This document shows, piece by piece, positions 4,410 through 41,905 of a DNA stretch of 43,478 bases. The translations under genes and the position numbers were made by a program. The DNA is from Nitrospinota bacterium (GTDB lineage Bacteria; UBA8248): the NCBI GenBank assembly GCA_026706735.1, contig JAPOYD010000119.1:1-43478 (forward strand), given 5' to 3'. Numbering within the stretch: the stretch's first letter is position 1; each line of letters starts with the position of its first letter. Under the pieces are notes generated by a model. The model worked only from the letters and a program-made list of their open reading frames with translations. It was not told the DNA's origin and made no database searches.

Positions 4410-5156
4410 ATGCCCATTCGTTTTGATTTTCACGACCGGAAGGTCATCCTCACGGGCGCGGCGGGAGCGATGGGAAGCCGCATCCTGCAGGGATATCTCG
4501 AAGCCGGCGCCAAGGTTTTCGCCACCGACAGGGAAGGCCCGGCCTTCGACGCGATCAGCGGCCCGTCCGATCAACTCTTCAAGCTCCCCTGCGACCTCGC
4601 CGACGTGGACGCCATCCGCACGACCATGCGAACGGCCCTCGAGTGGCTCGGCGGCTGCGACGTTTTGGCGAACGTGGCCGGCTATATGCCGATTCGCCCG
4701 CCGATGGAACTTGAGGAAGAGGACTGGAACGTCGTCCTGAACGTGAACCTGCTGGCGCCCTATTTCTGCATCCAGGAGACCATCGAGGCGCTCAAGGCCT
4801 CGGGCACGGGGCGCATCCTCAGTTTCGCGTCCATCGCGGGAAAGATGGGGGGCATCGGCCCCAATCTCACCTACTCCGCCGCCAAGGCGGGCCTGCTCGC
4901 CATGACGTTTAACCTCGCGCGGGAACTCGCCAGGACGGGCGTGACGATCAACACCATACAGCCGGGCCCGGCCGATACGGGCCTGCACTTCCAGTCCCCG
5001 CCCGATATGCTCGTGAACGCGGAGAAGGCGCACCCGATGGGCCGTCTCACGACGCCCGAGGACGTGTGGCACACCGTCTTATTCCTAACCAGCGAGGAAG
5101 CCGCGCACATCAACGGAGAGGCGGTGGACGTGAACGGCGGCTTCTGGACGGACTAG
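4410..5156 (+). CDS. Short-chain dehydrogenase/reductase (SDR)
   Basis: A 248-aa classical SDR that oxidises or reduces an alcohol/ketone with NAD(P). Visible motifs are the Rossmann glycine motif TGAAGAMG (residues 15-22), an acidic CDLAD segment near 61-65, NVAG at 88-91, catalytic Ser141 and the Y155-x3-K159 pair (YSAAK). The C-terminal DVNGGFWTD ending is common in the FabG-like group. The start ATG follows GGAG with normal spacing. The rhodanese gene begins 15 bp after its stop, so the two form an operon. The exact substrate is unknown. Confidence 0.92.
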   Translation: MPIRFDFHDRKVILTGAAGAMGSRILQGYLEAGAKVFATDREGPAFDAISGPSDQLFKLPCDLADVDAIRTTMRTALEWLGGCDVLANVAGYMPIRPPMELEEEDWNVVLNVNLLAPYFCIQETIEALKASGTGRILSFASIAGKMGGIGPNLTYSAAKAGLLAMTFNLARELARTGVTINTIQPGPADTGLHFQSPPDMLVNAEKAHPMGRLTTPEDVWHTVLFLTSEEAAHINGEAVDVNGGFWTD

Positions 5157-5171
5157 CCGGAGGAAAACACC

Positions 5172-6008
5172 ATGTCGAGCGACAACCCGAAAGGATATGC
5201 GAACCCCGACCTGCTCTGGTCGGCCGAACAACTCAAAGCGCGCATGGGCGACCCGAACCTTAGAATCATCGACGCGCGTCCCGGCGAGCGCTACACGATG
5301 GGGCACATCCCCGGTGCGCGGCACTTCGACGTCTACGGCGTGAACAGCGACGATTCGGACGAGGCGCCGCTCAAGAATTTCTTCTCCATGTGGGCGTTCC
5401 TGCTCGGAAACCGCGGGGTGTCGTTCGAGAACACCATCGTCTTCTATGACGATTTCGTCGGCAACACGAGCGTGCGCGGCTTCTGGATGCTCGAGCTTTT
5501 CGGCCACAAGGACGTCCACGTGCTCGACGGCGGCTATAGAGCCTGGGAGCGGGCGGGCTACGAGACGACGCGCGACGCCGAAGTACCCAGGGCTGCTCCG
5601 TTTCAAATGGCGTTCGAGCCGCACCGCCTCGCCACGCGCGAGGACGTGATGGCGGCCATCGAGGACGACAACCACATGCTGCTCGACACCCGCTCGATAG
5701 AAGAATGGCAGGCAACGAGCGTGCGCGCCAAACGCGGCGGCATCATCCCCGGCGCCGTCTGGCAGGAGTGGCTCCAGCACCTGACGCCCGAGGGCGAAAT
5801 GAAGCCCGCAGACGAGCTTCGCGCCCAGTTCGAGGCCATCGGGATCACGCCCGAGAAAGAAGTGACCGCCTACTGACAGACGGGCTACCGTGCGGCGCAC
5901 GGTTACTTCGCCCTGAGGCTCCTGGATTACCCCAAGGTGAAAAACTACATGAGTTCCTGGAAGGAATGGGGCAACCGGGACGATACGCCCATCGTGCATG
6001 CGCAGTAG
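5172..6008 (+). CDS. Two-domain rhodanese (SseA-like sulfurtransferase) with in-frame UGA at the catalytic Cys: candidate selenoprotein
   Basis: The frame opens at an ATG after GGAGGAAAACACC and runs 234 codons to TGA at 5874-5876. It continues in the same frame to TAG at 6006-6008, giving 278 residues, which matches the usual 3-mercaptopyruvate/thiosulfate sulfurtransferase length. The N-terminal rhodanese domain is the normal inactive kind ([13 protein letters not shown], Asp in place of Cys). The C-terminal domain reads VTAY-(UGA)[18 protein letters not shown] and then [13 protein letters not shown], the conserved family sequence in which the UGA codon sits exactly at the catalytic cysteine. 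A hairpin that fits a bacterial SECIS follows at 5882-5913. I therefore read residue 235 as selenocysteine; a Cys-to-stop pseudogene is the alternative. The enzyme would move sulfur or selenium to an acceptor such as cyanide or a thiol. It is coupled to the upstream SDR. Confidence 0.75.
5882..5913 (+). promoter_or_regulatory. Candidate bacterial SECIS element
   Basis: Directly after the in-frame UGA (5874-5876), positions 5887-5893 (ACCGTGC) pair perfectly with 5897-5903 (GCACGGT) around the loop GGC (5894-5896). An outer stem forms between GGGC (5882-5885) and GCCC (5910-5913). The loop begins 17 nt after the UGA and its first base is G. Distance, stem and loop G fit what is known of SelB-recognised bacterial SECIS hairpins. 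A chance GC-rich hairpin cannot be excluded. Confidence 0.6.
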
Positions 6009-39163: not shown

Positions 39164-41905
39164 ATGCCTGACGAGAAGACGATCGCCATTCGCATCGACG
39201 GCCGGGAGATCAAATCCCGGGCCGGCGCGACCATCTGGGAGGCCGCGCAGTCGATGGGCGTCGAGATCCCCAGGCTCTGCCATCAGCCCGGCATGGAGCC
39301 CGTGGGCGTGTGCCGCGTATGCGCCGTCGAGGTCGAGGGCGCCAGAACGCTGGTTCCCGCCTGTCACCGGAAGATCGAGCCCGGCATGGTGATCCAGACG
39401 GGAAGCGAGCGCGTCGTGCGCGCCCAGAAAACCCTGGTGGCCATGCTGATGGCGGACCACGGCGTTCAGTCCGAGCCTGAGAACTGCGAGCTCACCGCCC
39501 TCGCCGAGCAGATGGAAGCCAAAAACGGCGTGAGCGCCTTACCATCCAAGGAGACGGGGCGCTCGCAGGATTTCTCATCCGCCGTCATCGCCGTGGATCA
39601 CAGCGCGTGCATCCTGTGCGACCGCTGCATCCGCGCCTGTACGGACGTGCAGGGCAACAACGTCATCGGACGCGGCGGCAAGGGCGCGGACGCGAAAATC
39701 GTGTTCGACGCCGACCTGCCCATGGGGGAATCCACCTGCGTCTCCTGCGGGGAGTGCATGGCCGCCTGCCCCACGGACGCGCTCACCAACAAATCCCTCA
39801 CGCTGCAGATCGTCCCCGGCAAGACGAAGGAGGTGGATTCCGTCTGCCCCTACTGCGGCGTGGGCTGCTCCATCTCCTACCAGGTGGCCGGCAACACCCT
39901 CCTGAGCGTCCGGGGGGACGAGACGAGTCCCGTGAACCAGGGGAGGCTCTGCGTGAAGGGGCGCTACGGGTTCGACTACGCCCATCACCCCGACCGCCTC
40001 ACGACCCCCCTCATCCGAAAGGAAGGCGCGCCCAAGACGAAGGAACTGCCCGGAAATCCCCTCTCCCTGTTCCGCGAGGCGAGTTGGGAGGAGGCACTGG
40101 ACCTGACGGCGGCCTCGCTGGGGAAAATCTTTGATGCGCACGGCCCCTCGGCTCTGGCGGGCTTCGGCTCGGCCAAATGCTCGAACGAGGACAACTACCT
40201 CTTCCAGAAGCTCATCCGCGCCGTATTCGGCACGAACAACGTGGATCACTGCACGCGGCTTTGCCACGCGAGCTCGGTGGCCGCCCTGCTCCAGACCATC
40301 GGCTCGGGCGCGGTGAGCAACCCCTTCTCGGACGCGCTCAAGGCGGATTTCATCCTCGTGGCGGGTGCGAACGCCACGGAGAACCACCCGGTGGCGGCCA
40401 CCTTCATCAAGCAGGCCGCGAGCGCGGGCGCGACGCTGGCCGTCATCGACCCCAGGAGAATCGACCTGGTCGACCACGCGGACATGTTCGTCCAGTTCCG
40501 CCCCGGAACGGACGTGGCCCTGTTCAACGGGCTTTTGAACGTGGTGATCGCAGAAAAACTCTACGACGCGGATTTCGTCGCCGCGCGCACGGAAGGTTTC
40601 GAGGAACTCGCGGAAAACGTAAAGCCCTATACGCCGGAAAACGTCTCGAAACTCACCGGCATCCCGGCGGAGGCACTCCGGGAGCTGGCGAGGCGCTATG
40701 CGACTTCCGCGCGCAGCATCATCTTCTGGGGCATGGGCCTCTCCCAGCACACCCACGGCACGGACAACTGCCGCGCGCTCATCGCGCTCTGCCTGATTTG
40801 CGGGCAGATAGGCCGCGAGGGAACGGGGCTCCACCCCCTGCGGGGCCAGAACAACGTGCAGGGCGCGTCGGACGTGGGCCTCATTCCCATGGTCTATACG
40901 GGCTATCAGGACGTCGCCTCGCCCCGGATCCGCAGGAAATTCGAAAAGGCCTGGGGGCGGAAGCTCGACCCCGAACCCGGCCTCACCGTTATGGAGATCG
41001 CCGACGCCGCCCTCAGGGGCGAGGTCAAGGGCATGTACATCATGGGCGAGAACCCGGCCATGAGCGACCCGAACCTGAACCATTCGCGCGGCGCGCTGGC
41101 GAATCTCGAATTCCTCGTCGTACAGGACATTTTTTTGACCGAAACCGCCTATTTCGCCGACGTCGTCCTGCCCTCCACGGCGTTTCCCGAAAAAACGGGC
41201 ACCTATACGAACACGGACAGGAGAGTCCAGATCGGCAGGCGCGCCATCGACCCGCCAGGCCTAGCGAGGGAGGACTGGCGGATCGTGGCCGAACTCTCGG
41301 AGCGGCTGGGCTACCCGATGGACTATGAATCAGAAGCCGAGATTTTCGATGAAATCGCATCGCTCACGCCGTTCATGGCGGGAATGTCCTACGACCGCCT
41401 GGGGGGTCACGGACTCCTCTGGCCGTGCGCCCGGCCCAATCACAAGGGCACGGAAATTCTGTTTGGCAAATCGTTCCCCTCCGGCCGGGGAAAACTCATT
41501 CCCGTCCAGTACGCGCCCGCCAGGGAGCTGCCGGATGAGGACTACCCCTTCGTCCTCAACACGGGGCGCAACATCTACCACTGGCACACCGGGGCCATCA
41601 CCCGAAGGGCGCAGGCTTTGGAGGCCGCGGAACCGGGCCCCTACGTGGAAATGTCGCCCGACGACATGAAGCGCATGAGGATCAGGAACGATTCAAACGT
41701 CCTGGTGGAATCGAGACGGGGCGAAATCACCCTCCCCGTCCGGGCGTCGACGCGCGTGCGCCCCGGGCAGGTGTTCATTCCCTTCCACTACGTGGAGGCC
41801 GCCGCGAACCTGCTCACGGTGGACGATCTCGACCCCTACGGGAAAATCCCGGAGTTCAAGTTCTGCGCCGTGCGGGTGAGAAAAACGAGGAAGCAGCGGA
41901 GGTAA
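39164..41905 (+). CDS. NAD-dependent formate dehydrogenase, molybdopterin catalytic subunit
   Basis: A 913-aa FdsA/FdhA-type subunit. It has an N-terminal [2Fe-2S] domain (C39, C50, C53, C67), two [4Fe-4S] clusters (C149, C152, C155, C159 and C192, C195, C198, C202), and the cluster of the molybdopterin domain (C228, C231, C235, C263). Catalytic Cys367-His368 is in HCTRLCHASSV, and the conserved Arg is in HPLRGQNNVQGASDVG. The C-terminal dinucleotide-binding domain ends with FIPFHYVEAAANLLT. These identify a cysteine-type formate dehydrogenase. The His-Cys3 cluster of NuoG/FdsA is reduced to DHGVQSEPENCEL (H99, C108), so that cluster is apparently lost. No fdhD/fdsC chaperone or FdsD subunit adjoins. 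Confidence 0.93.
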   Translation: MPDEKTIAIRIDGREIKSRAGATIWEAAQSMGVEIPRLCHQPGMEPVGVCRVCAVEVEGARTLVPACHRKIEPGMVIQTGSERVVRAQKTLVAMLMADHGVQSEPENCELTALAEQMEAKNGVSALPSKETGRSQDFSSAVIAVDHSACILCDRCIRACTDVQGNNVIGRGGKGADAKIVFDADLPMGESTCVSCGECMAACPTDALTNKSLTLQIVPGKTKEVDSVCPYCGVGCSISYQVAGNTLLSVRGDETSPVNQGRLCVKGRYGFDYAHHPDRLTTPLIRKEGAPKTKELPGNPLSLFREASWEEALDLTAASLGKIFDAHGPSALAGFGSAKCSNEDNYLFQKLIRAVFGTNNVDHCTRLCHASSVAALLQTIGSGAVSNPFSDALKADFILVAGANATENHPVAATFIKQAASAGATLAVIDPRRIDLVDHADMFVQFRPGTDVALFNGLLNVVIAEKLYDADFVAARTEGFEELAENVKPYTPENVSKLTGIPAEALRELARRYATSARSIIFWGMGLSQHTHGTDNCRALIALCLICGQIGREGTGLHPLRGQNNVQGASDVGLIPMVYTGYQDVASPRIRRKFEKAWGRKLDPEPGLTVMEIADAALRGEVKGMYIMGENPAMSDPNLNHSRGALANLEFLVVQDIFLTETAYFADVVLPSTAFPEKTGTYTNTDRRVQIGRRAIDPPGLAREDWRIVAELSERLGYPMDYESEAEIFDEIASLTPFMAGMSYDRLGGHGLLWPCARPNHKGTEILFGKSFPSGRGKLIPVQYAPARELPDEDYPFVLNTGRNIYHWHTGAITRRAQALEAAEPGPYVEMSPDDMKRMRIRNDSNVLVESRRGEITLPVRASTRVRPGQVFIPFHYVEAAANLLTVDDLDPYGKIPEFKFCAVRVRKTRKQRR

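Follow-up and report, generated by a model that had tools for sequence, protein, structure and literature searches.

The window analysed here, a stretch of 43,478 nucleotides that makes up one contig (JAPOYD010000119.1) of a Nitrospinota genome, carries at 5172..6008 on the forward strand a gene that, judging from sequence comparison, very probably encodes a selenocysteine (Sec)-containing rhodanese-related sulfurtransferase, with an in-frame UGA at the catalytic position read as Sec. The source genome is a draft of 3.79 Mb in 191 contigs and is 93.7% complete. The named close relatives are Nitrospinota (UBA8248, RHO1_bin_79) and Candidatus Tectomicrobia.

Structure of the gene and its product

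The frame from the ATG at 5172 to the true stop, a TAG at 6006..6008 (forward strand), contains only one in-frame TGA, codon 235 at 5874..5876, which is followed by a C. A first-pass annotation of this DNA had proposed that the frame continues past the TGA with intact family sequence, and this is indeed the case: the product is a complete two-domain rhodanese of 278 residues including U235, of the tandem-domain thiosulfate/3-mercaptopyruvate sulfurtransferase type. Pfam Rhodanese (PF00581) matched two stretches of the protein (E 9.4e-35), and its N-terminal domain is without a catalytic residue. The closest solved structure was RhdA from Azotobacter vinelandii (PDB 1e0c; E 1.9e-44, residues 13-274), in which residue 230 aligned with U235 (loop CQTHHR against UQTGYR). 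Taking Cys230 of 1e0c to be the catalytic residue of RhdA, we find the UGA at the position of the nucleophile, where the first-pass annotation had also placed it. The NCBIfam 3-mercaptopyruvate sulfurtransferase (3-MST) model NF008557 gave 140.4 bits, under its curated cut-off of 250 bits, and the product is therefore regarded as a related sulfurtransferase that is not assignable as 3-MST.

In the proposed decoding, SelB carrying Sec-tRNA would bind an mRNA hairpin just 3' of the UGA, Sec would be inserted at codon 235, and the ribosome would go on to the TAG. By analogy with the family, the selenol of Sec235 in U-Q-T-G-Y-R may accept a sulfur atom, forming a selenenyl-sulfide that corresponds to a Cys persulfide, and pass the sulfur from its donor on to an acceptor thiol. 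Ordinary gene calling ends the protein one residue before the active site, so that annotations throughout an uncultured, partly sponge-derived lineage probably describe the enzyme as a rhodanese that is truncated or inactive.

Conservation of the UGA and selection past it

Orthologues were searched for in 61 genomes, including 18 of the same family and 7 of the same genus. In 16 of the 18 family genomes, among them all 7 of the genus, the best match contained a single TGA. Of the remaining two, G007 harbours an orthologue with no stop and a Cys codon at the UGA column, while G009 gave distant matches only, with no close orthologue. All 16 TGA codons and the Cys codon of G007 share one alignment column, and G056, from another family, also has a TGA there and belongs to a distant Sec clade described below. 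Among the best 80 of 571 named matches, the catalytic column held TGA in 22 and Cys in 58, with nothing else at this position and no further stop in any of them; five of the 22 TGA loci duplicate contigs already counted among the genomes searched.

The UGA might still be a genuine stop, leaving a pseudogene or a truncated protein of 234 residues, and it does terminate other reading frames of the window in the ordinary way: the 25 long open reading frames, Sec rhodanese included, end in TGA (6), TAA (8) and TAG (11). UGA has therefore not been reassigned throughout, and a change of the whole code is ruled out. A genuine stop at codon 235, on the other hand, is very unlikely from the selection data. 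Over 120 pairs of the 16 orthologues, pN/pS was 0.233 before the TGA (230 codons) and 0.255 after it (39 codons), and within the genus (21 pairs) the values were 0.156 and 0.083, respectively. No insertion or deletion was found downstream of the TGA in the 16 orthologues, and none of them has a frameshift or an extra stop. The codons past the TGA are still under purifying selection, unlike a decaying tail, and truncation would remove the catalytic residue in all 16. Decay of the gene in close relatives, which the first-pass annotation had named as a sign of a pseudogene, was not seen in these intact orthologues.

The hairpin following the UGA

A SECIS-like hairpin is present at 5882..5913 (forward strand), built as the first-pass annotation had described it. 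The upper stem comprises 7 bp (ACCGTGC at 5887-5893 with GCACGGT at 5897-5903) and closes a G-led loop, GGC at 5894-5896, 17 nt past the UGA; the outer stem has 4 bp (GGGC at 5882-5885 with GCCC at 5910-5913). The published rules for bacterial SECIS elements call for a loop of 3-9 nt, a stem of 4-16 bp, a G in the first two loop positions, a distance of 16-37 nt from the UGA and an energy of -7.5 or lower (PMC13188914). Coded by us in a contiguous-stem version, these rules accept the hairpin, with its stem of 7, loop GGC, spacing of 17 and -9.7 kcal/mol for the stem-loop. A hairpin of this kind was found in 16/16 Sec orthologues vs 0/60 Cys relatives. The same rule is also triggered by 956 of the window's 11132 control codons, so a lone hairpin is weak evidence, and it is the conservation among relatives that carries the case. 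The folding energy is ordinary for a sequence encoding this peptide, with 964 of 5000 random synonymous recodings folding at least as strongly; a perfect stem of at least 7 bp, found in 12 of the 5000, is unusual.

Conservation centres on the upper stem-loop (5887-5903), where 15 of the 16 Sec orthologues retain all seven pairs and G012 retains six. The outer stem is less conserved, with all four pairs kept in 14, two in G012 and three in G017. In four orthologues (G002, G003, G006 and G010) the best single fold of 45 nt is another structure. Covariation was not found in the stem, which hardly varies; the sole change across the 16 rows, in G012, disrupts the outermost pair of the upper stem. 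Synonymous differences were scarce over this region, with a pS of 0.051 over codons +1 to +9 vs 0.536 over codons +10 to +39. Invariant residues other than Met, Trp and Sec occupied 134 columns. Of these, 18 used a single codon in all 16 rows, and they made up 9 of the 10 such columns from -2 to +8 vs 9 of the 124 elsewhere (Fisher p 1.6e-8, for a region picked after the data were seen). The two codons 5' of the UGA are frozen as well, which a downstream SECIS does not account for. An Rfam scan of the window gave no match at the gathering cut-off.

Selenocysteine machinery

The four parts of the Sec machinery, whose presence the first-pass annotation had suggested checking, were all found in the genome of origin. 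selA (C22:3152-4537, 578 bits) and selB (C22:5472-7358, 383 bits) lie on the same contig, selD is at C112:1964-2926 (334 bits), and a tRNA-Sec on C114 scored 75.8 bits, above the Rfam cut-off. The selD gene has one in-frame TGA, which suggests that its product is probably a selenoprotein itself. Altogether, 17 genomes carry a UGA rhodanese of this type (the 16 and G056). All four parts were found in 10 of them, three in four (G010, G011, G013 and G016) and one in three (G004, G014 and G015, whose genomes are 79, 70 and 67% complete). G007, with its Cys copy, and G009 also have all four parts, and the machinery therefore serves other genes too; with these two as counterexamples, no tie between the presence of the machinery and the UGA rhodanese was found. 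A formate dehydrogenase-like protein encoded at 39164-41905 in the window bears Cys (RLCHASS), presumably at the site that holds Sec in many formate dehydrogenases.

Reading of the UGA by a tRNA for Trp or Cys or by a suppressor tRNA, rather than by SelB and tRNA-Sec, might be favoured by the C that follows it, a context that may be weak for termination. We consider this very improbable, as Cys was the sole substitute at the UGA column (58/58 non-UGA rows among the best 80 of the 571 matches), the Sec machinery is present, and the SECIS-type hairpin is conserved. An error in sequencing or assembly that turned a Cys codon into TGA, conceivable for one contig of a draft genome, is refuted by the identical TGA in 16 separately assembled family genomes and 18 distant-clade loci, and its probability is negligible.

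An upstream short-chain dehydrogenase gene

A short-chain dehydrogenase (SDR) gene at 4410..5156 (forward strand) ends 15 nt before the ATG of the Sec rhodanese, and the two are likely to be on one two-gene transcript. The SDR gene adjoins the rhodanese gene in all 16 family Sec orthologues (partial in G016, at a contig end) and next to the Cys orthologue of G007. Outside the lineage, an adjacent upstream SDR was seen at none of 75 named loci, 64 of which had at least 800 nt of upstream sequence.

A second Sec rhodanese in the genus

In 6 of the 7 genomes of the genus there is another rhodanese whose catalytic codon is UGA (LYURLSHRAS), a paralogue about 32% identical to the window gene; in the seventh, G004, there was no match at E 1e-50. 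In the genome of origin the gene is split over two contig ends (G000:C42:2-511, L004, and G000:C65:20540-20911, L005, both on the reverse strand), and it is intact at the other five loci (L240-L244). All six copies have a hairpin of 9 bp with the loop GUC, 19 nt past the UGA. In other genera of the family, the corresponding residue was Cys at all seven loci inspected, and three more matches, two of them in G009 and the third in G010, had no stop. From this distribution, the second rhodanese looks like a recent change from Cys to Sec.

A distant Sec clade

Apart from the 16 orthologues, 18 Sec rows were obtained from Poribacteria, Latescibacterota, Gemmatimonadota, one Nitrospinota and G056 (L186, L198, L211, L214, L215, L220, L221, L224, L225, L228, L230, L232, L234, L235, L237, L238, L239 and L024). 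All 18 have UAC at +4, and all have Ser-Ser at +6/+7, vs 2 of 60 Cys rows. A hairpin fitting the SECIS rules as coded was found in none of the 18, and alifold gave their consensus only -4.3. The clade is therein a test case for SECIS diversity.

A single clade of all 34 Sec rows was rejected (AU p 3.6e-43) on a tree of 90 rows, four long rows (L174, L216, L218 and L023) having been dropped from 94 with the number of changes remaining the same. The tree contains four changes between Sec and Cys, at least three of them forced by starred branches, with gain and loss indistinguishable; loss in the intervening Cys rows would fit the rejection of an all-Sec clade as well as separate gains would. We tentatively raise the possibility, which we hold to be somewhat less than probable, that Sec replaced the catalytic Cys of rhodaneses in at least three independent events (in this lineage, in the Poribacteria-Latescibacterota-Gemmatimonadota clade and in the second paralogue of the genus), and that decoding in the distant clade depends on a bacterial SECIS of an undescribed class, recognisable by an invariant UAC-CGY-UCY-UCN after the UGA and not by the standard hairpin.

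Comparison with known systems

Sec-containing rhodaneses have been listed before. The Sargasso Sea catalogue of 2005 includes three sequences of a Sec rhodanese-related sulfurtransferase, COG2897, with predicted SECIS elements (PMC1088965), and the GOS catalogue of 2008 lists eight Sec rhodanese sequences under cd01449 (PMC2398784), so that such proteins are indeed reported from marine metagenomes, as the first-pass annotation had stated. A review of 2022 includes the Sec form of COG2897 (PMC9312934), a review of 2026 distinguishes five forms of rhodanese selenoprotein, form 4 being UxxG (PMC13188914), and a Sec rhodanese-like domain is among the entries of a paper on marine deltaproteobacteria (PMC8318568). 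Among the papers listed, no title claimed a purified Sec rhodanese, and among the best 12 of 3409 matches there was no title on selenoproteins in Tectomicrobia and Poribacteria. Where the catalogues describe the role of Sec in sulfur transfer, it is given only as predicted. In vitro, the binding of selenium by a Cys rhodanese, in the form of a perselenide, has been described (PMC9369223), and a role as a selenium carrier is therefore conceivable. The idea of a Sec rhodanese had at first been rated plausible but rare; plausible it is, and its support was understated.

The window gene is a well-supported new example of an enzyme family predicted since 2005, and not a new kind of system. As described in the sources above, the COG2897/SseA Sec rhodanese (form 4) shares with it the Pfam family, the tandem domains, the UGA at the catalytic Cys, the hairpin just 3' of it and widespread Cys homologues; the catalytic loop U-Q-T-G of our PF00581 protein likewise corresponds to UxxG. 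This likeness is one of description, and the window gene differs in being known from whole genomes of one lineage, together with the machinery and a conserved SDR gene. A. vinelandii RhdA has an alignable loop, but with Cys where the window protein has Sec. The second Sec rhodanese of the genus (URLS) fits the motif of rhodanese-like selenoprotein form 1 (UxxS), a comparison of motif and Pfam name only. Our analysis adds to these known forms the conservation across a lineage, the second Sec rhodanese and a separate Sec clade whose hairpins do not fit the rules. The value of the window gene lies in the depth of its support and in the natural comparisons of Sec with Cys: the pair formed in one family by G000 (the genome of origin) and G007, and the one found in a single paralogue of one genus, provide a clean system for asking what selenium contributes to sulfur transfer.
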